From assembly GCA_029204225.1 (NCBI GenBank), contig CM055108.1, positions 12,213,955 through 12,277,954 of the forward strand: a stretch of 64,000 nt of DNA, read 5' to 3'. Below are positions 19,271-59,220 of this stretch, piece after piece; position 1 is the first letter of the stretch; the number at the start of each line of letters is the position of its first letter. This DNA is from Diphasiastrum complanatum. Taxonomy: Eukaryota; Streptophyta; Lycopodiopsida; Lycopodiales; Lycopodiaceae. A model generated the notes under the pieces. It ran no database searches. It was not told where the DNA came from and was given only the letters and a program-made list of their open reading frames with translations. The position numbers and the translations under genes are program-made.

Positions 19271-19993
19271 TTACTTTACGAAAGAGTAAGTGATTTTGAT
19301 AATGCCTTCTTCGGGGTTCGCGATGTACTTGAAAGCTTGAAATGAGAGATCTAATGTACCATAGCACTCGCCCGCACACTCATCTGCAACCTTCACATAG
19401 ACTCGATTATGCTGTGAGTGGCAAGGATTTCCATCACCCTGGGTGCCACCCACGCACGTCACCAGAATACATTGGCCACATTTGGAGGAATGAAAGAGAC
19501 CCGTTTTCAGTGCCACAAAGTAATAATGTGGTCCGAGCTCTTTATGGCTTGAGCCGTAGCATGCGGTTTCTGTTTTTGTTTTCGCGATCAGATGTATTAG
19601 TAGAAGGAGCGAGTCAGAAATTGAGCTTAACAACAGAAATATGCTTGAAGGAATTACAACAAAAAGGAAGGAAACCCAACAACTAGTATCATCAATATCC
19701 AAAAGGGAGAGAAAGACAGAGGAGCAGAGACCTGAATAGTCGTTGTAAAAGGTAGCTTTTGCCGAGCTGGTAAGAAGCAACCTCCGAGCCGGTGGACCTT
19801 TGGCGCTCCAAATCCTTAGGTGGGAACTAGGGTTGAAAGAAGCCGTAGCTTCTAAGCCATGCACACCGATTGTTGCTGGTGCTGCTTGTGCTTCTGCACC
19901 TAATATGAAGCTTGATGATGCTGGTAGAATTGTTGCCACCCCCGCCACCATAAGGAGAGCCACCAATAACACGGAGCGCATCGCCAAAAGCAT
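19271..19993 (-). CDS. Secreted EG45/plant-natriuretic-peptide-like protein (DPBB domain), two exons
   Basis: Exon 1 is 19993-19732 and exon 2 is 19569-19271; the intron has GT (19731) and AG (19570) ends in phase 1. The spliced product is about 186 residues. It has an N-terminal hydrophobic signal peptide (MRSVLLVALLMVAGVATIL) and a linker. A single double-psi beta-barrel domain follows: ATFYNDY, ACYGSSHKE, KCGQCILVTC, VYVKVADECAGEC, then LDLSFQAFKYIANPEEG and ITYSFV before the stop. The second, grass-pollen-allergen domain of true expansins is absent. That and the length match EG45/PNP-like apoplastic proteins rather than expansins. Six or more Cys suggest disulfides. It is the only apparently intact host gene wholly inside the window. 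A one-domain expansin-like protein is the alternative name. Confidence 0.82.
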   Translation of the reverse strand: MLLAMRSVLLVALLMVAGVATILPASSSFILGAEAQAAPATIGVHGLEATASFNPSSHLRIWSAKGPPARRLLLTSSAKATFYNDYSGLCSSVFLSLLDIDDTSCWVSFLFVVIPSSIFLLLSSISDSLLLLIHLIAKTKTETACYGSSHKELGPHYYFVALKTGLFHSSKCGQCILVTCVGGTQGDGNPCHSQHNRVYVKVADECAGECYGTLDLSFQAFKYIANPEEGIIKITYSFVK

Positions 19994-20111
19994 TGTAGCT
20001 GCAACACTCCCAATCTCTCCCTCGTTGCAATGGCTGTTTGAGCGTGAGTGTTAGTAGAGAGAAGAGATTGAGGAGTGCTGGCAACGCCTGTTATGAATAT
20101 GCTTGCTCACA

Positions 20112-46226: not shown

Positions 46227-46981
46227 TCGTTCTAGAGAGAGAATCGCCTGTTCTAGAGAGAAAGTGGAGACATCTTTGATTTTTGCTTGTTTTTTAAAGA
46301 TTTTGAGGGGGGGAATCGTGGAGACAGCTGTTATAGGTGTTCTTAGACCTCCATCGCTGCTGCTCCAGCCCAAGAGTTCGATTGAGTTGTTTTTCAGATC
46401 AGAATTCTTCAATACGTCGTCCTACAGGTCCATCATTGCCTAGGAAGAGGAAAAAAATCAGCGCTTCAATTGGACATAACTTCTCCTATAGATGTCAGAT
46501 TGCGATGAGATTTTGGCAGGCTATTGTTGGTGCTGGATCGCTGCTAGGGAGGCTGAAAATCTGAGAAAAATTTTTAAAATCGCTGATTCTGCTCAAAAAA
46601 CAGATTTTGGACGTTTTTTAGAGGTTTTGGAGTTGAAACGTCATAACTTCATCGCCGTATGTCCGTTTAACCTAAGATTTGGCACGACAAATTCTTACAG
46701 GAGGGCGCATTGATTTGTTGCTGTTTTTTCACCTGTTTTTGCAAAAAGTCGACAAATTTTCCGGCAACCTCTTCATCGGTCATCCATACTACGTCTTTGG
46801 GAACCAGAGAGTGATCTATCCTTGCTGATTTATTTTACTTTCTGTTTTCCCTTTTCACAAGATTTTTTTTTGTTTTTTTTTGTGTACATTCAGAAAGAGA
46901 CTTTGTTTTTATTATGGGATAAGACCGTGTCGATATACCTCTTAGACCTCCTGTTGCCCTCCAATCACCATCCCCAGTCCT
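46227..46981 (+). other. Gypsy leader; no gene
   Basis: The 755 bases between primer site and gag ATG. GC-poor, with T runs near 46865-46885. Confidence 0.55.
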
Positions 46982-47577
46982 ATGCTTAGCCCTGACTGTA
47001 ACCCGCCTACAGTGGCTGCTAGTTCGCCTGCTGGTGTTTCCTCTTCTGTGCAAGCTCGCATGGATAGTATGGAGAAGACTGTCTCAGAGATGCGAAAGAT
47101 GCTCTCCTCTGTAGCTGGTGGTTTTGCGTCCTCCTCTCAGCATGCTCTGCCTTACTCTTATGCATTTCCGTCTTCTGCGGTTCGTCCTGTGTTACCTCCA
47201 CACTACCCAGAAGACAAAGATATTAAGCTTACTCATTTCGCAGGAAACACTCCCCAGAGAACTACTGATGCAGTAGACCAGTGGTTGCATAAGTGGGACG
47301 AATATTTTGATTTGAAGCGGGCCCCAACCAATGAGGGTTGGCAAGTCTGCAAAGCTGCTTATCATTTCACTGATTATGCTGACAGGTGGTGGCGCAAGGT
47401 ATTGAAGTCCAATCAGGCTCCATCCACCCGACTTGAGTTTAAGCAAGCTTTTAGAGCTCAATTCATTCCTCCACATGAGCATGTAATATTTGTGGTTGTG
47501 TTAGGTGAATGTTGATTCCAGTTTTGATTCTCGTTTTTGTAATAATCAGCCAAGCACACTCGCTAATGAACCACAAC
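46982..47577 (+). pseudogene. Gypsy Gag N-terminal half (old plus-strand element)
   Basis: The ATG at 46982 opens 177 codons. A coiled-coil-like MDSMEKTVSEMRKMLSSV is followed by the retrotransposon Gag domain: LTHFAGNTPQRTTDAVDQWL, KWDEYFDL, AAYHFTDYADRWWRKVL and LEFKQAFRAQFIPPHEH. The frame then fails at about 47490. After about 60 further bases the inverted-LTR element (47578) interrupts it. Sequence after that insertion resumes in RT, so the gag C-terminus, protease and most of RT were already deleted. Confidence 0.85.
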
Positions 47578-48609
47578 TGTTACGAGCTCGTAACCAGTGC
47601 CGAACCCTAGAGAACACAGATAGGTCAGATACCACAGTCAGGGTCGTGTCCAGTGTACATGACCAACAGGGCAAGACAGTGTGAGTAGTGTGCCCCAGCA
47701 CGGTCCATAGCCATGGCGGGCCTAACACAGCCTAGGGACCCTGTCAGCAGGATAGGGCCCCCAGTTGGGTCCCGACGTGCAGTCGGCCACGTCAGTGCCA
47801 CGTGGCCGACACTTGGCAGTTGCATGCTACCAGTCCTCACACTGGGCTAGGAGGGGCTTACTCTATATCAGGGAGTAGGCAAGGTTGGGTGGATCAGTTA
47901 GTGTTTGCCCTACTGTGGTGTTAGGATCTATTACACTGGTATCAGAGCCATCTCCATCCTAGGGAGTTCAGGACAGCAGTAGAGAAAGCTATCAGAAGAT
48001 AGGAAAGATTTCTCAGATTCTCAGAAAAGAATTGAGGAGGAAGATCGCTGTAGGAGCAGCCTTCAAACTTCTGATTTCCACTGAGAAATCACAGTAGCAA
48101 GGAGTCAGATTCCAAGTGTAGGTAACTCGCTGAAAAAACAGCTGTTTCCCACTGAGTTGAGAGGATTCTCTATAGTTTTCCCAGCGAAATTAGAGTAGGA
48201 AGAAGCCAGCACCTCCATCGCTGTACAGTCAGAGACCTACATCCGATTTAGTGTAATAGATCCTAACACCACAGTAGGGCAAACACTAACTGATCCACCC
48301 AACCTTGCCTACTCCCTGATATAGAGTAAGCCCCTCCTAGCCCAGTGTGAGGACTGGTAGCATGCAACTGCCAAGTGTCGGCCACGTGTCACTGACGTGG
48401 CCGACTGCACGTCGGGACCCAACTGGGGGCCCTATCCTGCTGACAGGGTCCCTAGGCTGTGTTAGGCCCGCCATGGCTATGGACCGTGCTGGGGCACACT
48501 ACTCACACTGTCTTGCCCTGTTGGTCATGTACACTGGACACGACCCTGACTGTGGTATCTGACCTATCTGTGTTCTCTAGGGTTCGGCACTGGTTACGAG
48601 CTCGTAACA
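47578..48609 (+). mobile_element. Inverted-LTR retroelement: LTR - primer site - leader - inverted LTR, with target duplication
   Basis: Left LTR 47578-47935 (358 bp, TGTTACGAGC...CTATTACA), one spacer base C, primer site TGGTATCAGAGC at 47937-47948, leader to 48251. Then comes the same 358-bp LTR in inverted orientation, 48252-48609 (TGTAATAG...CGTAACA). The arms differ at one position by my reading (G in the left arm against T in the right, in 'cacgtg(g/t)cactgac'). The 5-bp duplication ACAAC flanks the unit at 47573-47577 and 48610-48614, so it integrated as one piece. It has no coding capacity. The LTR family is that of the full chromovirus at 50220-56484, which could have supplied the enzymes. 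The 71-codon frames in the LTRs are not genes. Confidence 0.88.
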
Positions 48610-48614
48610 ACAAC

Positions 48615-50219
48615 CCCCTAGTGCACATGTCGTTTCATTACAACCAAGATGTGACCCAACAAGTGAGTTGGGTCCGTCCTAGTTATTCACCTTTCACCTC
48701 TCCTATTTTGGTAAGTTTTTGCAAGTTCTACCAGTAGTTCGTTAGGAACAATTCCAGGGTAGCTACTCCTTACGGAAAAACAACACTGTAGTTCGGTGGG
48801 TTGCTAAAGCTCAGCACAAGTTTGAGAACTTGATGGAGGTGCTGGCCACGGTTCCAGTTCTCAAGATTGTTAATACCCAGAAACCATTTGATCGAGAAAC
48901 GGATGCAAGTGGCATTGTCGTAGGTGCAGTGTTGAGCCAAGATGGCAGACCAGCACAGGAGCAAGATCTGTATGCGCGCTCAAGGTGTGGAGACATTATA
49001 TATATGGCGCTGAGTTTTATGTGAACACAGATCATCATACTTTAAAGTATTTTGCACTCAGCCAGATTTGAAAGCCGCCAAGCTCGGTCGGCCGAGCTGA
49101 TGCAGGAATTTCATTTGGAAATTCGCTTCTGAAGAGGGAAGAAAAATGTGGTCGCTGATGCACTATCGTTGGTATTGCATCAGATGAGCCTTGCCTGTAG
49201 TTGACAGTGATCTCATGGAGGAGATCAATAGGGCTCAGCAAAAGGACCCACAATGTCAGTGTGTGTGGCCTATGCATGAAGTTAGTCGACCAAGCGGAAG
49301 AGTCAGCCTCGCCTATCGCTTCCGTAGAGGCACACACCAGTACTTATTTGACATACACCGTGAAGGAAGGTATATTGTTGAGAAATGGAAAAGTATTCGT
49401 GCCAAACATGAAGGATCTTCACCGTAAGATACTTCATGAATGCCATGATAGTCACTAAAAAGGGCACCCTGGTATTGATGAGACCAGTGAACTTATAAGA
49501 AGGCATTATTTCTGGCCACGACTGCAGCGAGACGTAAGAGAGTATGTCCAACGTTGCACGGCTTGTCAAGTGAACAAGGCCGAGAGAGTAAGTCCTCTGG
49601 GCTTGCTACATCCACTTGAGATACCTACAGGAAGGTGGGAAAGCATCTCTATGGATTTTTTATTGTTGGTCTACCAAGGACCCAAGCGGGGTTGAACTAC
49701 ATTAAGGTAGTGGTAGACATCTTTTCTAAGATGGCCCATTTCATCGCAACGACCAAGAAGGTCACAGCTCCGCAAGTCGCTGAATTGTTTATTCAGAATA
49801 TTGAAAAGTTGCAGGGCCTTCCGACGTCCATTGTGCTAATAGGGATCCCAAGTTTATGGGAAATTTCTGGATTGAGGTGTTCGCCAAGCTGGGAACACAG
49901 CTGCGGATGAGTAGCTTTGAGCATCCTCAGATGGATGGTCAGACAGAGCGAGTGAACTAGATCTTGGAAGATATGCTTAGGGCATATGTTAGTAGTACGC
50001 AAACAGACTGGGTAAAGCATTTACCACTATTGGAGTTCGCGTACAATGACGAGAGACATGCACCCACTGGATTGAGTCCATTTGAGCTCAAGTATGGTTT
50101 CAAGCCACTAAGTCCTGCAATCATAGGAATTCCGCATAGGGTACCTAGCGTTGTAGAGTTTTTGACTAAGATGCAACAGAAGCTAGAGATGGCACGAGAT
50201 AACTTGTCCAAGGTTGTAG
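48615..50219 (+). pseudogene. Gypsy pol remnant (RT end, RNase H, integrase) of the old element
   Basis: Starts in the RT thumb (CKFYQ, then FVRNNSRVATPY). RNase H follows (ETDASGIVVGAVLSQDGRPA), then an integrase zinc-binding domain (ILHECHDSH, HYFWPRLQRDVREYVQRC, TACQVNKAERV) and the core. The core shows SISMDFL, KVVVDIFSKMAHF and, after damage near 49850, EDMLRAYVSSTQTDWVKHLP with ELKYGFKPLSP. Stops and frameshifts are many. The frame 49964-50224 is open up to the insertion point of the chromovirus and continues at 56490. Confidence 0.88.
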
Positions 50220-50577
50220 TGTAATAGATCCTAACACCACAGTAGGGCAAACACTAACTGATCCACCCAACCTTGCCTACTCCCTGATATAAAGTAAGCC
50301 CCTCCTAGCCCAATGTGAGGACTGGTAGCATGCAACTGCCAAGTGTCGGCCACGTGTCACTAACGTGGCCAACTGCACGTCGGGACCCAACTGGGGCCCC
50401 TGTCCTGTTGACAGGGTCCCTAGACTGTGTTAGGCCCGCCATGGCTATGGACCGTGCTGGGGCACACTACTCACATTGTCTTGCCCTAATGGTCGTGTAC
50501 GCTCGAAACGACCCTGACTGTGGTATCTGACCTATCTGTGTTCTCTAGGGTTTGGCACTGGTCACGAGCTCGTAACA
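50220..50577 (-). mobile_element. 3' LTR of the chromovirus
   Basis: 358 bp, preceded on the minus strand by the polypurine tract (50578-50593). It carries 'ggccacgtgtcac' G-box-like palindromes, as do all four copies of this LTR. Confidence 0.95.
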
Positions 50578-50579
50578 CT

Positions 50580-51038
50580 CCCTCACCCTTAAGAACCGTC
50601 TTGGTCCTCTAAGACAAAGTCTGAAAAAATCTTGCGAAGGACGCTGCCTCTTTCCCACGTGGCATTCTCAACAGGCTGATCATTCCACTTAACCAGATAT
50701 TCTCAGTATAGAGTATGACGAGTCTGCGTCTCTCTACTATCAAGAATCTTCTCTAGTTCATGTGGAGGTTGCTGAGGATCCAAGGGGAGAACTAGAATAC
50801 TATCCCCTACCAGATTTTCTGATCTGGTTAAGGCTTTTCGTAACTGACTTACATGAAAGACTGAAAAAACCTTACTACTGTGTGGGAGTTCTAGTTCATA
50901 GGTGACCTCGCCTAGTCTCCTACTGATGGTAAAGGGACCACAATACCTTGGAGACAACTTAGCACGCACTCCTGATTTGAGGGTTTTAGAGTCAACTGGG
51001 ACTCTCAAGTAGACTTTCTCACCAGCGGAGAACTGCAC
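50580..51038 (-). pseudogene. Chromovirus integrase tail with chromodomain
   Basis: The frame from 51038 reads KVYLRVPVDSKTLKSGVRAK, LSPRYCGPFTISRRLGEVTY (GPY/F domain) and VFHVSQLRKAL. After one stop near 50703 it gives EYLVKWNDQPVENATWERG, a chromodomain-type end (VKW...ATWE). Chromodomains steer integration to modified chromatin. Its presence puts the element among the chromoviruses. Confidence 0.88.
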
Positions 51039-51071
51039 ATCCCGTCTGTGTGGATCTGCATAATGCCTGGC

Positions 51072-51929
51072 TCAATCCTGGGACTGCCTAATGCTACACT
51101 TAGCATGTTCTATCATCTGGTTTAGGTCCTCTAAAAAGTTTTTGGTTGCTTCAAGTTTTTCTTGTTTAAACTCTACAGCTGTGGGTGAGCGTGGCTGAAA
51201 ACCGTACATCAGCATAAATGGGCTGTATCCCGCAGCTGAATGTTTGGTACTGTTGTAAGCAAACTCTAATATCGAGAGATACTCCTCCCAATTAGTCTGC
51301 TTCTTGCTGACGTATGCAGGAAGCATATCCTCCAGCACCTGATTTACCCTCTCTGTTTGACCGTCCGTATGTGGATGGTCGGTGGTACTCATATAAAGTT
51401 TAGTATGGAGATGATGGAATACTGCCCTCCAAAAATTCCCATTAAACTTACTGTCCTGGTCGCTGACTATGCCGGAAGGTAGATCGTACAATTTAAATAG
51501 CCCGTCTACAAACAACCTCGCTAACTCTGGAGCTCTAACGGTTGTTTTGGTCGGAATAAAATGAGCCATTTTGGTCAGACGGTCAACTGTGACCCATATA
51601 GCGTCATTACCCTTTCGGGTTTTAGGCAGGCCTACTATAAAATCCATGGAGATACTCTCCCATTTACCAGCTGGTATTTCTGAGGGCTGCAACAACCCTC
51701 CTGCCTTTAAACGCTCTGCTTTGTTTACTTGACATTTCTGGCAAGTGGTTACATACTGTTGGACGTCCTTTTTCATACTGGGCCAGAAAAATTGCCTACG
51801 AAGAAGCTCATAGGTCTTCTGTATGCTTGGGTGTCCCGCACTAGGATTCTCATGACATTCATATAGGACCTGCTGCCTATAATCCTCTGAATTGGGGACA
51901 CATACTCTCTCTATAGAGCAAGCACTCAT
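51072..51929 (-). pseudogene. Chromovirus integrase (zinc-binding domain and DDE core)
   Basis: 285 open codons. The HHCC zinc site is in LYECHENPSAGH, then CQKCQVNKAERL. The core residues are D in SMDFIVGLP, D in GIVSDQDSKFNG and E in TERVNQVLEDML, so the catalytic triad is complete. It continues to YGFQPRSP. This is the best-preserved enzyme of the element. A frame break separates it from RNase H upstream (52169) and from the tail at 51038. Confidence 0.92.
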
Positions 51930-51930
51930 C

Positions 51931-52168
51931 CTAAATGGAATAATGTTTCCATTTGAATCCTTGAGTCAACTGACCCTCAACCACTGGGGTTTGCTTGGGT
52001 GATATAGGCTCAGAATCCTCAACGTCATCTGACGTATACTCGGACTCATCATCATCCTCAATGGAAGCTGCCGTATTCTTGGATGAACTGGCACCAGCCC
52101 CGGGAACTGGTTCTGGAGTCTGTAACTGTCTGCTCTGGACTGAGTTCCAGATAGTAGAGAAGAATGCA
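51931..52168 (-). pseudogene. Chromovirus RNase H-integrase linker, acidic
   Basis: The frame 52209-51931 contains a Ser/Asp/Glu-rich tether (ASIEDDDESEYTSDDVEDSE) between RNase H and integrase. Confidence 0.5.
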
Positions 52169-53300
52169 TCATGCTGGCACTTCCCTCTCAAGGACTCTGA
52201 GTAACTCATTACGAATCTGAGTAAAACTCAGCTCGTTTATCATAGGCATTCTGCTAAGGGCATCTGCTACTGTATTGAATTTCCCCCGTCTATATCTGAT
52301 AGACATATCAAACTCTTGCATCAACTCTGCCCAACGAGCTTTCCGACCTCTAAGCTCAGGTTGATTGCAAAGGTATCTGAGACTTTCATGGTCTGTCAGG
52401 ACCTCAAAGTTGGCACCATACAAATAATGCCTCCAAGACTTAAGGGCATGGACTATAGAAAAGAGTTCCTTTTCATAGGCACTGTACCTAGTCTGAGTTG
52501 GCTCGAGTTTTTTACTCTCGAACGCAATTGGTCGTCCACCCTGAGTTAGCACAACACCAACTGCAAAGTCGCTAGCATCTATTTCGACCACAAATGGCTG
52601 ATTGGGGTCGACGACTTTTAAAACTGGTGTTGTGGCTAAGGCTGTTTTGAGAGCATCAAAGCTCTCCTGCTATGCGGACTCCCAAATGAACTCTTTTCCC
52701 TTCCCCTTAAGAAAATTTGTCATGGGAACTGCTATCTGAGCATATTCCTTGACAAATCGTCTATAATATCCCGCCAAACCAAGAAAGGTCTGAAGTTCCA
52801 AAATATTCTGAGGTCTCAGCCAACTGAGTATGGCTTTAACCTTATTCGGGCCTGTTTAGCATAAAGCTTATGCTTTCTGAGCAGTCGAAACACCTTTCTG
52901 AGGTGTTTTAGATGCTCCTTCCTCGTTTTGCTATAGACGAGGATGTCATCTAAAAATACGACTACAAACTTACCCAAGTATGGTCTGAGGACACTGTTCA
53001 TCAAGGTCATAAAGGTAGCTGGAGCATTTGTGAGCCCAAATGGCATCACCTTAAACTCATAATGACCGTGACGAGTCCTGAAGCTGTTTTCGAGACATCT
53101 TCCAACTTTATACGGACTTGATGATATCCCGATCTGAGGTCTATTTTACTGAAAAATTTAGCCCCGTCGAGTTGATCAAACAACTCGTCTGCCCAAGGCA
53201 TAAAATACTTATTCTTTATTGTGACTTTATTGAGGGCTCTGTAATCTACACAAAGACGTATAGACCCCTCTTTCTTTTTCACCAAAAGGACTGGTGAGGC
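52169..53300 (-). pseudogene. Chromovirus reverse transcriptase and RNase H
   Basis: RT: 53285-53046 gives [20 protein letters not shown] and [16 protein letters not shown]. After a frameshift, 53049-52816 gives [16 protein letters not shown] and [12 protein letters not shown], an FLDD version of the catalytic box. RNase H: 52591-52169 gives EIDASDFAVGVVLTQGGRPI, YEKELFSIVHALKSWRHYL, LTDHESLRYL and RYRRGKFNTVADALSRMP, with its acidic residues present. Frameshifts at about 53045 and 52800 inactivate it. Confidence 0.93.
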
Positions 53301-53571
53301 CCATGGTGAACTATTGGTCTGAATTTGGCCTTTCCCAAGATAATCTGTTAACTACCTAGTTATTTTTTCATCCTCTGTTCGGCTGACCCGACACGGAGGT
53401 TTAGAAACAGGTGCTGTATCTGGTACTAGGTTTATTACATGATCTACCTCTCTGCTAGGTGGCAAACCATGTGGCAAATCCAGGAAAAACATCTTTAAAT
53501 TTTGACAATAAAGTTTCTAATTTACTGATTTTTTGCTGTATAGAACTAGAAATAGAAACTTCAAGAATAAA
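53301..53571 (-). pseudogene. Chromovirus protease-RT junction, degraded
   Basis: Minus-strand sequence joining protease to RT, with several stops. It includes the RT approach PPSREVDHVI and PDTAPVSKPP in broken frames. Confidence 0.5.
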
Positions 53572-54851
53572 CTAAAAGTCACATAAAAATACCTGATGGT
53601 CATCGTCTCCGATTAGCTGACAGAGCTCTGAACTGCAGACCATAGGACTGTTGGGAACATCATGCTCCCCATGCAACTGGATCTGTCGGCCTTTATGTTG
53701 AAAGCTGAGGGTATTCTCCTGATAATTTTTGTGGAGGGAAGGTCCTAAACTGTAGAGCCAATCTCTCCCGAAAACAATGTCTGTGCGATCCAGGTGCATT
53801 ATCTGAAAGTTTATTTCATCTTGATACCCCTGAATACCAAGATTTAAGTTACTTACCATAGTTTCCCAGATTTTCTTATCTTCACCCTTAGCTAATGAAA
53901 CTATGTACCTATGCTAACTAGGTATTTTTGGAAGTTTAAGTTTTTTAAGTTGATGAAATTATGGGTTGCCCCATCATCAACCATAACTCTTACTGACTGG
54001 TTACCAACTTTCTCGTGCATACGTACTAGGTCATGTGGCCCAAAGTTGAAGGGTCTCGCTAGCATTGCAGAGGTCAGTTGGCAACAGTGTTCATGATCTT
54101 CATGATACACTTTGATCTCGGAAGCTGCCGAGTCACTGGGGAAACTTACAGTCTGAACAAGATGAACTTGTTTCTTATCTTTTTTATCTTTTTTAGTGAA
54201 AGGCCCCTTGGGACACTGTCTGACTATGTGTCCTTTGCCCATACACACAAAGCACAAACGTTCTTGTTTGGCTTTCTCAAAATCTTCTGGTTTTAAGAGC
54301 TGTATGAGTGAAGGGCGTTTCTGAGGAGCTTCACCTTTAATTTTATCTTCTTTCTTTCTTTTTAAAAATTTCTTTTTAGATTGAAAGTCTTTCTGAGGAG
54401 GCTGCTCAAAAAGGGGCTGTTGTCTCGCCTTTTTTCTACCCACTGAATTATCATAGATTTGAGCATATCTGAGAGCTTGCTCAAGGGTAGTAGGCGAGTT
54501 TCTCTGGACCTCTACTTTATATTCATCTTTGAGGCCTCGGACAAACCCTCTGATTTTCTGATAATCATCCATATTTTTAATCTTTAAAATTGCTTCTCGG
54601 TACTGCGAGATATATTGGATGAGGGACTTGTCCATGACTGTTCTTTCCCAGGCTTCCCAGGCTCTATCAAGTTCATTTTCTGGTAGGAATTCTCTTAGGA
54701 AAGCTTCTTCAAAAGCTTTCCATGACCGGGGAGTCTGCCCAGTCTCCTGGAGATTTAACCACCACTTATAGGCCATGGACCCTAAGGAAAGATTGGCCTC
54801 AATTGCTTGCAAATGGTCAGGGGTCTGTTTAAAGCATGAATGTTCTTCCAT
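53572..54851 (-). pseudogene. Chromovirus Gag and protease
   Basis: Gag from 54851: AYKWWLNLQETGQTPRSWKA, FEEAFLREFLPEN, a Lys/Gln-rich stretch and a perfect zinc knuckle (CFVCMGKGHIVRQC) near residue 200. Protease follows in the same frame: NQSVRVMVDDGATHNFI with active-site DDGA (DSGA-like). After a stop near 53900 it continues at 53859 (INFQIMHLDRTDIVFGRDWL). The true gag start is upstream of 54851, in frame-broken sequence to about 55240 (note NADILQTFLNKWKN near 54880). Confidence 0.9.
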
Positions 54852-54879
54852 TTGTTGAGGAAGGTTTGTAGAATATCTG

Positions 54880-56113
54880 CATTTCTATCCTTCTCTTCCC
54901 CAATAAAAGTAGGAGGCTTTAAATCTTTAAAGACACTGGGGTGAGACCGCAAAGTCTCACCTGAATAGCGGAACTCAAAATCAAGCCTTTGAGTTCAGCG
55001 AACGAGTCATCCACACTGGACTTGAAATTGGCTAATGCCAACTTCAGTTCATCCACTTCTGTTACCAAGTGGAGAAACTGCTCCTTGGTAACTAGTTCGT
55101 CAAGTTCTTCGGCAAACTATTCATGTTCTTCCATTTCCATAGGTTCTTTCCCTTTACTGTAAGCCAAGGCTTCTGTTTCAAGTTCGTCGAAGCCTCTCTT
55201 CGGGGGTTGATCAGGTCCCTGAGGAGTGGTCATTTTCGGAACTGAAAGAGAGGTACCTTAACTTCTGAAGAAAAAAAGTCAGAAAGACTAATTTACAACT
55301 GTACAAGAAAGGGAAAGAAAACTTAGCTCTTTCTGAGAACTGTGCTTCCACAGAGAGAATCAAGAAAAGCCCTCTCAGCTCTTCCTCAACTGCTTTCAGA
55401 CCTTTTGTCCCGGAGAATCTCAGTTTGAAGCTCCAAAACGGTGCCAAATTTCCTGCTTCTTGAGTTCAGTAGCTGACTGATCTGATTTCAGGTGTGGGGC
55501 TCCAACAAACCGAGTAAAAACTGGAAAATTTACAAAAAGAAATCCGGAATTTTGATGTCCCTGCCCTCGCTGGTTGGACAGCAACCTGTCTGGCCCGATT
55601 TGTCCAATTTAAAGCTCAAAAATCCGCTTGAATCTCTGAGTTGACCTCAACTGGTAGGTCACTGGTCTGTGGCAAACAAGTTTGAAGTTCAAACCCCTGA
55701 GAAATCTCAAAAAACAGGGATGAAATTTCACCTTTTCTCTTCCCTGTCCAGCGCTGACCCTGCCACTCTATTTCAGATTAGAACTTACTCTAATATACTC
55801 AAAACTTGATACAAATTTCAGATTTGAGGGCTAGCTATACAGCGATGGATCTGCTCTTCCTTTCCCCTTGAATTTCCGCTCAAATTACACTGAACTACAC
55901 TCGAAAATCAGAGAGGGAAACTCATTCATCAGCGCTGAAGCTATTCTAAGAAATATGCTTCCAAACTACTGAGATTTCCAGCAAATTGGAGGATTAGAAA
56001 GCTGATCCTATAGCAAATTTCCTCCTCTAACTCTTTCAAAGAAACTAAGAGAATTTTCCTATCCTCTGATAGCTTTCTCTACTGCTGCTACTAAGCTCCC
56101 TAGGATGGAGATG
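54880..56113 (-). other. Chromovirus leader and broken gag start
   Basis: The region between primer site and the readable Gag. The minus-strand frame at 55447-55211 has no domain. The leader start matches the leader of the inverted-LTR unit (47937-48251) for roughly 300 bases with moderate divergence. Confidence 0.55.
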
Positions 56114-56125
56114 GCTCTGATACCA
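56114..56125 (-). other. Primer-binding site of the chromovirus
   Basis: TGGTATCAGAGC on the minus strand, one base inside the 5' LTR. Confidence 0.92.
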
Positions 56126-56126
56126 G

Positions 56127-56484
56127 TGTAATAGATCCTAACACCACAATAGGGCAAACACTAACTAATCCACCCAACCTTGCCTACTCCCTGATATAGA
56201 GTAAGCCCCTCCTAGCCCAGTGTTAGGACTGGTAGCATGCAACTGCCAAGTGTCGGCCACGTGTCACTGACGTGGCCGACTGCACGTCGGGACCCAACTG
56301 GGGGCCCTATCCTGCTGACAGGGTCCCTAGGCTGTGTTAGGCCCGCCATGGCTATGGAGCGTGCTGGGGCACACTACTCACACTGTCTTGCCCTGTTGGT
56401 CGTGTACGCTGGACATGACCCTCACTGTGGTATCTGACCTATCTGTGTTCTCTAGGGTTCGGCACTGGTCACGAGCTCGTAACA
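56127..56484 (-). mobile_element. 5' LTR of the chromovirus
   Basis: 358 bp. Partner of 50220-50577 and close relative of both arms of 47578-48609. Confidence 0.95.
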
Positions 56485-56489
56485 TGTAG

Positions 56490-56695
56490 CTAGGACTGAG
56501 AGTTATGCCCGTGAGAACCGTACCTATTGGGAATTTAAAAAAGGAGATTGGGTGTATTTACTAGTCCCTTTGAAATCGAAGGTGCTACGCACAGGAAGGT
56601 GCGCCAAGTTATCTCCTAGGTATTGTGGACCATGGTTGATTATTAAGAAGGTGAGCCAAGTAGCTTATAAGCTACAGCTACCTGTGGGATGCGAG
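56490..56695 (+). pseudogene. Integrase tail of the old gypsy element, downstream of the insertion
   Basis: The frame resumes after the TGTAG duplication with ARTESYARENRTYWEFKKGD, then VLRTGRCAKLSPRYCGPWLI (GPY/F domain) and VAYKLQLP. It is in phase with 49964-50214 once the chromovirus and one duplication copy are left out of account. It breaks off at about 56695, where the G-box repeat array begins. Confidence 0.88.
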
Positions 56696-56699
56696 CCCC

Positions 56700-58376
56700 A
56701 GCTCTCTCTCTCTAGGTCCACTCAAGCCTACATGGCAGAGCTTGGCTGGCTTGCCACACAAGCCTATGGCAAGCCTATTTGGTACTTGCAACATGTTTGC
56801 GTGGCAGACATCAAACCTATGCCATGCCTATGTGGCCTGCCACACAAGCCTATGGTAGGCCTGCATGGCTTGCCACGTGGCAACTTTCGAGCCCACCTAT
56901 ATCTCTCTCTCTCTAGGTCCACTCAAGCCTACGTGGCAGAGCCCAGTTGGCTTGCCATACAAGCCTATAGCGTGGCAGTGTGCCACAGGCTTGCCAGATA
57001 GTAGACCACATAGGCAGAGCCTAGTTGGCTGCCAGCCCATGATGGGCCTACGTGGCTTGCCACCTGGCTACCTCAAGCCTGCATGATTTGCCACGTTGAA
57101 GGCATACGTGACTTGCCATGTGGCAGCCTATGACAGGCTTGGTAGATAGCAGGCCTATGTGGCCTGACACACAAGCCTATGGTAGGCCATGTGGCAAGCC
57201 ACACAAGCCTATGGTAGGCCTACGTGGCTTGCCACATGGCATCTTTTGAGCCCCACCACTTTCTCTCTCTAGGTCCACTCAGGCCTACGTGGCAAAGCAT
57301 GTTTGACTTGCCACACAAGCCTATGTTAGACCTACGTGGTTTGCCACGTGGCAAACCCTAAGCTTGTAGGACTTGCCACGTGGTAGACCTACATGGCTTT
57401 CCACGTGGCAGCCTGCGACAAGATTGGTAGATAGTAGATCTATGACATGCCTATGTGGCCTGCTACACAAGCCTATGGTAGTCCTACTACGTGGCTTACG
57501 ACATGGGAAGTACCAACCCTACATGGCTTTCCACATGGCAAGCCCACGTGGCTTGCCACTTGGTAGCCTACGAGCCCCACCTCTTTCTCTCTCTAGGTCC
57601 ACTCAAGCCTATGTGGCAGAGTCTTGTTCGCTTGCCACACAATCCTATGGCAAGCCTACGTGGCAACCTGCAACATGCTTGCATGGCAGACATGAGACCT
57701 ATGCCATGCCTATGTGGTCTGCCATGCAAGCTTATGGTAGGCCTACATGGCTTGCCACGTGTCAGCTTTCGAGCCCACCTCTCTATCTCTCTCTCTCTCT
57801 GTGGGTCCACTTAGGCCTACATGGCAGAACTCGGTTGGCTTGACGCACGAGCCTATGATAGGCCTACATGGCTTGCCATGTGACAAACCCAAGCTTGCAT
57901 GATTTTCCATGTGGCAGGCCTATGTGGCTTGCCATGTGGCAACCTATGATAGGCTTGGTAAATAGTAGGCCTCTATGGCCTACTACACAAGCCTATGGTA
58001 GGCCATGTGGCAAGCCACACAAGCCTATGATAGGCCTACGTGGCTTGCCACATGGCCAGTCCCAAGCCAACCAGGCTCTGCCACGTAGGCCTGAGTGGAG
58101 AGAGAGAGAGAGAGAGAGAGAGAGCCTACGCAAGCCTATGTTAGAACTACGTGGTTTGCCACGTGGCAAACCCCAAACTTGCATGACTTGCCATGGCGTA
58201 GGCCTACATGGCTTGCCAAGTGGCAGTCTATGACAGGCTTGGTAAATAGCAGACCTATGAAATGCCTACGTGGCTTGCTACACAAGCCTATGGTAATCCT
58301 ACGTGACAAGTCTCAAGCCTACATGGTTTTACACGTGGCAAGCCTATGTGGCTTGCCATGTGACAACTTTCAAGCC

Positions 58377-58447
<71 letters not shown>

Positions 58448-58700
58448 CTCAAGCCTACGTGGTAGAGCCTGGTTGGTTCACGCAAGCCTATGGTATGCCT
58501 ACGTGGTTTGCCACATGGCAACCCCAAGTCTGCATAATTTGCCATGTGTCCGACCTACGTGGCTTGCCATGTCGCAGCTTGCGACAAGCTTGGCAGATAG
58601 CAGGCCTATTACATGCATATGTGGCCTGCTACACAAGCCTATGGTAGGCCTATGTGGCCTGCCACATGGTTTTCCATGTGGCAGGCCTACAGGACAGGCC
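56700..58700. repeat. Satellite-like array of CCACGTGG/GGCTTGCC units
   Basis: Two kilobases built from short phrases 'aagcctatggtaggcctacgtggcttgccacgtggca'. They are arranged in larger units that begin after a (CT)n run with 'aggtccactcaagcctacgtggcagag' (near 56714, 56916, 57269, 57593, 57803 and 58443). Spacing is about 200-640 bases. One copy near 58060-58110 is inverted (ctctgccacgtaggcctgagtgg + (GA)n). Frames here (for example 57373-57843 and 58095-58736) translate the repeats (CGLPHKPM...) and are not genes. Confidence 0.9.
58379..58444. repeat. (CT)n microsatellite within the array
   Basis: About 66 bases of CT repeat, the longest of the CT runs that head each unit of the array. 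Confidence 0.95.

Positions 58701-59180: not shown

Positions 59181-59184
<4 letters not shown>

Positions 59185-59220
<36 letters not shown>
59185..59220. repeat. (TA)n microsatellite
   Basis: About 36 bases of TA repeat. Confidence 0.95.

Follow-up and report, generated by a model that had tools for sequence, protein, structure and literature searches.

A chromovirus insertion with opposed LTRs in Diphasiastrum complanatum, probably integrated as one unit from an aberrant cDNA

How two LTRs of one retrotransposon family came to face each other around a single primer-binding site (PBS), and whether they entered the chromosome together, is the question raised by a locus in the lycopod Diphasiastrum complanatum. 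The window, i.e. the whole stretch of DNA that was analyzed, comprises 64,000 nucleotides of contig CM055108.1. An earlier note on this DNA had described an integrated retroelement with inverted instead of direct LTRs, and the anatomy that it gave was confirmed (Table 1). The two opposed 358-bp LTRs have the claimed orientation and lengths, a single primer site lies in the interval of 316 bp between them (47936-48251), and both copies of the 5-bp target-site duplication (TSD) ACAAC are present at the ends of the whole unit. The outer ends do represent the same LTR terminus, as both are U3 tips. Alignment of the left and right LTRs yielded 357 identical positions out of 358, in agreement with the one difference counted previously; the sole mismatch is a C at 47798 versus an A, read in the sense of the LTR, at 48389. 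The complementary arms extend to 360 bp with this one mismatch when CT at 47936-47937 is included, which pairs with AG at 48250-48251. The outer edges of the unit coincide exactly with the U3 termini, and its inner edge is located at the U5/PBS junction plus 2 nt. The primer-binding site presumably corresponds to the 3' end of initiator tRNA-Met from plants. Compared with a complete LTR retrotransposon, the unit shares the 5-bp TSD at its outer ends. However, its LTRs are not in direct orientation, a U5 tip does not face outward at either end, and the bases preceding the right arm are leader sequence instead of a polypurine tract (PPT).

Table 1. Positions of the inverted-LTR unit, its parts and the neighboring elements in the window
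Feature	Position	Strand	Description
Whole unit	47573-48614		1.03-kb linear insertion, plus both ACAAC
Target-site duplication, left copy	47573..47577	.	ACAAC
Left LTR	47578..47935	+	358 bp, TGTTAC...ATTACA, U3 tip outward
Spacer base	47936..47936	+	C, boundary of U5 end and primer-binding site
Primer-binding site	47937..47949	+	TGGTATCAGAGCC
Primer site and 5' leader	47937..48249	+	Cut off at the inner junction
AG	48250..48251	-	Complement of PBS base 1 and spacer
Right LTR	48252..48609	-	Inverted, 358 bp, U3 tip outward
Target-site duplication, right copy	48610..48614	.	ACAAC
Ordinary element F	50220..56484	-	Same family, separate from the unit; direct LTRs 56484-56127 and 50577-50220
Older decayed Ty3/gypsy element	46946..50219	+	Apparent host of the unit and F; gag match below Pfam's cut-off

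The family to which the unit belongs was identified by means of the ordinary element F. This element is flanked by the TSD TGTAG, 20 of 358 positions distinguish one of its LTRs from the other (5.6% divergence), and the purine-rich sequence GGGTGAGGGAG precedes its 3' LTR. Pfam matches were obtained for gag, RNase H and the zinc-binding domain of integrase, while the integrase core remained below its cut-off; in addition, F carries a piece of a chromodomain (PF00385, E 3.6e-06). Stops break its frames in the parts that were read. The gag, RNase H, integrase and chromodomain matches identify the family as a Ty3/gypsy chromovirus. The left LTR of the unit is 97.2% and 95.0% identical to the LTRs of this coding member, and an adjoining primer site and a collinear leader are present in both. 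The identity of the LTRs to those of an element with chromoviral domains bears out the earlier assignment of the unit to a chromovirus. Thus the unit resembles F in LTR family, primer site, leader and a TSD of 5 bp, whereas F has direct LTRs, a full-length internal region and one U3 and one U5 end tip. Among the best 120 of 2,173 integrase relatives, the best match bearing an organism name, from the fern Ceratopteris, reached 60% and other contigs up to 71%; lower among these 120 were Adiantum ferns (42-63%), beside a grass and pine-coded names. One older decayed gypsy element seems to have received both insertions, first the unit and, further along its length, F. The RNase H and integrase of this host element and its apparent continuation past F at 56485 were recognized by eye. 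As a separate detail, the U3 tip of the unit contains a perfect 16-bp palindrome, GTTACGAGCTCGTAAC (47579-47594), and the F copy of this palindrome has one mismatch.

Both the duplication and the similarity of the arms bear on whether the unit was inserted as a whole. A 5-bp match at the spacing of the unit occurs at 80 of 62,900 positions in the window (1 in 786), and a frequency of 1 in 960 is expected from the local composition. Between separate insertions of this family, 9-43 of 356-358 positions differ, and at a divergence of 2.8% the probability of finding at most one difference in 358 is 4e-4. Two independent insertions were rejected on the basis of these divergences between insertions together with the odds of the TSD. 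More generally, the arms could have been brought together by a chromosomal rearrangement, either through two insertions in opposite orientation and loss of the DNA that separated them, or through a fold-back template switch in which an inverted 5' LTR copy took the place of the 3' part of a normal element. Plant LTR elements are commonly nested and rearranged, and the unit and F seemingly lie in one old element. However, after two insertions neither a TSD match with odds of about 1/786 nor arms so nearly identical would be expected, nor a breakpoint that falls at the U5 tip, and the fold-back variant requires two template switches, each within 2-3 nt of LTR termini. Rearrangement is thus regarded as quite improbable.

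An artefact of assembly or library preparation was weighed on the basis of the assembled sequence. A fold-back artefact would be expected to mirror the flanks, but in an ungapped inverted comparison beyond the arms 73 of 300 positions are identical, and blastn between the 1-kb flanks in the inverted sense gave no match at E <= 1. Since the flanks lack inverted similarity, a fold-back origin is unlikely and was rejected; the assembly palindrome, which the earlier note had named as a possible refutation, is thereby made unlikely. An erroneous join between repeats would match the TSD by chance only, and an artefact of either kind is considered extremely improbable. The joined flanks (200 + 200 bp) contain no frame open across the insertion site, as the old gag frame already ends some 60 bp short of it; this observation is neutral with regard to an empty site. 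Taken together, the anatomy supports the earlier proposal of one integrated unit with two U3 tips, and we hold with good confidence that it was integrated as one unit from an aberrant cDNA.

The part of a normal element that such a cDNA would represent can be read from the leader. The 314 nt of the unit from the spacer to the junction align with the first 314 nt of the F leader without a large gap in a pairwise alignment with free ends, and local alignment of the last 154 leader nt to F exceeded 500 of 500 shuffles. In a MAFFT alignment the last ~25 leader bases were scattered over distant gaps. A leader with a large internal deletion was rejected owing to the collinearity of the pairwise alignment, which indicates that the unit represents the 5' portion of a normal element, truncated about 312 nt past the start of the primer site.

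The inner junction provides information on how the inverted LTR was attached. It had been claimed that the right arm begins by mirroring the spacer base; this is correct, except that the claimed extent is one base too short, the first primer-site base being mirrored as well. A spacer C between the LTR and the TGG of the primer site is found in the three elements seen, i.e. the unit, F and a further family copy from the same assembly (L013). In the general scheme of reverse transcription, and in HIV-1, the U5 end of linear cDNA bears the spacer and often a further base, which lies opposite the last tRNA nucleotide, and integrase removes both bases. An unprocessed U5 cDNA end in the chromovirus family would read ...ATTACACT, and its complement AGTGTAAT is the exact start of the right arm. 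Judged from this sequence, AG is probably part of an unprocessed U5 cDNA end, and the match favors such an end over an inner join made by integrase. It also agrees with the proposal that the inner edge lies at the primer-defined U5 end, for which the anatomy argues. As AG also precedes the U3 tip of F, both cDNA ends plausibly bore two removable bases in a symmetrical manner.

At the position corresponding to AG, F has GT after TTT in the pairwise alignment, while the same two columns of a three-way alignment contain TG in F and GC in L013, with the G column shared between the unit and F. The alignment around the inner junction is loose, and the evidence on AG depends on it. That neither F nor L013 harbors AG at this position is modest evidence suggesting that AG arrived with the inverted LTR. 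Because the closest parent copy was not found, AG may instead consist of native leader bases, for which the probability is 1/16 by chance alone.

With moderate confidence, the unit as a whole is interpreted as an integrated truncated chromovirus cDNA that was capped by U3 at both ends and most likely arose via a template switch; the template-switch route taken by itself is proposed tentatively, at somewhat less than even chances. This cDNA would have been a linear duplex in which U3-R-U5 and the primer site were followed by ~312 nt from the start of the leader and by an inverted LTR. After the second strand transfer, the plus strand would copy ~312 nt of leader and then change to a new template, plus-strand LTR DNA of its own or of a sister molecule, at the U5 end, which would still bear the spacer C and the first T of the primer site. 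The switched strand would copy back U5, R and U3 and run off at the 5' end defined by the polypurine tract. This would account for the exact second U3 tip, because the outer edges lie where the plus strand of the family would start after the tract. Once the complementary strand had been completed, integrase would pair both U3 tips, and concerted insertion with the usual 5-bp stagger would give rise to the ACAAC duplication. A point that counts against this scheme is that the switched strand would at first be a one-ended hairpin and would need conversion to a two-ended duplex. The earlier claim that integrase joined two identical ends stands as far as the two outward U3 tips are concerned; the use of both tips by integrase we infer from their position.

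Other routes to the same aberrant cDNA fall within the confident conclusion of a single-unit insertion. In a one-ended autointegration, the right LTR, once its U5 end had been processed, would use the 3'-OH of this end to attack a leader on its bottom strand, either within the same cDNA or in a sister cDNA. At the nick thus made, the 3'-OH of the leader would prime DNA synthesis, which would proceed through the attached plus-strand LTR as far as the 5' end set by the PPT, and integrase would insert the resulting duplex with two U3 tips. This route is neater than a template switch in that a single extension yields a two-ended duplex with exact U3 tips, and it agrees with the start of the right-arm LTR exactly at TGTAATAG. 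In addition, inverted two-LTR structures are stated for Ty in the relevant passages of PMC4751563, and inverted circles for HIV-1 in those of PMC2644782. However, integrase joins after CA, so that native leader is expected before TGTAATAG; what precedes it is AG, which in a loose alignment is present in neither F nor L013. Moreover, the yeast data as presented in the relevant part of PMC4751563 show no signs of autointegration junctions. One-ended autointegration is accordingly viewed as possible but rather unlikely.

Full autointegration into an inverted-LTR circle, from which integrase later cuts at both U3 tips and inserts the small arc, would include the required order of LTR, leader and inverted LTR in its geometry (relevant passages of PMC4751563). 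It is also in line with the internal cleavage of a palindromic LTR-LTR junction by HIV-1 integrase in vitro, as given in the corresponding part of PMC1905944. That cleavage is not applicable to the unit, as the U3 tips of such a circle are flanked by the PPT and the leader and do not form a palindromic junction. Two integrase events would be required, the objection concerning AG applies here as well, and the circle is thus considered highly improbable. End joining would explain AG as an intact U5 end without any need for homology, if the broken end of an LTR-leader cDNA was fused, prior to integration, to an LTR-sized cDNA fragment at the unprocessed U5 end of the latter. Two separate fragments are required for this, and one of them must be a duplex of the LTR alone whose U3 end is free; none was observed, which makes end joining improbable.

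At two assumed plant rates, one difference in 358 positions corresponds to about 0.1-0.2 million years, and the insertion is likely recent, as far as can be judged from the sequence. The recent date given in the earlier note is plausible in view of this value; against it stands that gene conversion can even out the arms and that the differing base varies in the family. At the position of the mismatch (47798/48389), A is found in both LTRs of F and in the right arm, whereas C is found in the left arm and in the relative represented by L013/L022. As both bases occur among family copies, the mismatch cannot be polarized. The variation of this base within the family makes a two-template origin conceivable, and the arms might be derived from two different templates.

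Comparison with known element types delimits the structure further. TRIM and LARD elements are non-autonomous and non-coding, with direct LTRs and with PBS and PPT retained. The unit is likewise non-coding, but its LTRs are inverted and no PPT lies at the right arm. Multiple copies of one structure are expected of these groups; a second copy of the unit was absent from 27 sampled loci, which form a very small sample. DIRS elements possess inverted terminal repeats, encode a tyrosine recombinase and generate no TSD. The unit shares inverted terminal repeats with them, but has a TSD of 5 bp and belongs to a family with an integrase. According to older work cited in the relevant passages of PMC4751563, Ty autointegration can yield an inverted two-LTR circle, and inverted circles are named for HIV-1 in the corresponding part of PMC2644782. 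The yeast data, as described in these passages of PMC4751563, show no sign of autointegration junctions, apart from one mosaic read that fits a truncated circle; none fits an inverted circle. Cleavage of the palindromic LTR-LTR junction by HIV-1 integrase was obtained in vitro (relevant part of PMC1905944). Like the autointegration circles of Ty1 and retroviruses, with the geometry worked out here from the same passages of PMC4751563, the unit contains an LTR and a partial leader, to which an inverted LTR is attached by its U5 end. It differs from these unintegrated, full-length circles in being a linear insertion with a TSD and with both U3 tips outward, and probably in two additional bases at the point where U5 is joined.

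Pairs of opposed LTRs have been mentioned for TRIMs of grape (passages of PMC7166211), for two cases in cucumber that were set aside (passages of PMC4600303) and for Gypsy-25 of locust (passages of PMC8786324). The LTRs of these pairs are said to be inverted or to run in opposite directions, and the pairs may or may not be of the same kind as the unit; in the passages concerned they are described without a TSD, a leader junction or a mechanism. A rearrangement of XMRV with a deletion at the U3 end and a duplication of 273 bp, described in the relevant part of PMC2857682, differs in structure from the unit. In the part of the open-licence literature that was covered, no description was found of a chromosomal insertion that combines a TSD with inverted LTRs capped by U3.

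The frequency of such units was assessed in 27 loci on one contig of the same assembly, 26 of which are spread along the contig while one extends L013. The sample amounts to 268,200 bases with an overlap of 1,200 bases and contains 12,298 N within the first 210,000. No second inverted unit was present in these 27 loci (268,200 bases), a sample far too small to indicate uniqueness. One further full family LTR was located (91%), seen in L013 and L022, which represent the same copy. In L013 the LTR is followed by the leader and then by gag-pol sequence, and a 3' LTR was not found within 7.4 kb downstream. A match of 63 bp to the LTR occurs in L006 together with related internal sequence (74-83%), and L018 contains an internal match of 149 bp. 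A pattern scan of viral contigs resulted in 0 matches. The unit retains LTR tips, primer site and leader, so that it could be a member of a non-autonomous family of this shape amplified in trans. However, the inverted right LTR leaves no downstream R in sense orientation, and ordinary first-strand transfer is consequently impossible; moreover, there is no second copy in the 27 sampled loci, although this is a very small sample. A non-autonomous family of this kind is little to be expected.

If confirmed as an integrated, U3-capped cDNA, the unit would provide a natural record of a reverse transcription error that was still accepted by integrase, and of the joint use of two identical U3 tips in a living plant. 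As a rule, programs that find LTRs search for direct repeats, and inverted-LTR units would therefore be missed. A genome-wide count would tell how often aberrant cDNA reaches the chromosome. The transcript of the unit is predicted to form a near-perfect hairpin of ~360 bp with a computed energy of -897 kcal/mol, which follows from the inverted arms and does not represent independent evidence. Owing to its hairpin arms each such copy would be a candidate silencing locus, the transcript of which could feed small-RNA silencing of the family. It is conceivable, though unlikely, that chromovirus reverse transcriptase regularly makes U3-capped palindromic cDNAs that integrase inserts. This would result in an overlooked class of scattered units with variable leader breakpoints, whose ~360-bp hairpins would feed small-RNA silencing of the parent family.

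Several further repeats and one open frame were observed. The only inverted repeat of at least 150 bp at E 1e-20 in the sampled loci is located at L023:3667-4484, with arms of about 349 bp that are 69% identical and about 170 bp apart. Within the window, an inverted pair at 3-628 / 38836-38200 (638 bp, 82% identity, 38 kb apart) is perhaps another dispersed repeat. Directly past the remnant of the host gypsy element, positions 56692-58700 consist of degenerate tandem repeats with units around 25-33 bp and longer, among which GA and TC microsatellites occur, and an AT tract is located at 59184-59220. An open frame on the minus strand (19271-20050) shows a match to the double-psi beta-barrel domain (PF03330), and may encode an expansin-like or plant natriuretic peptide-like protein.
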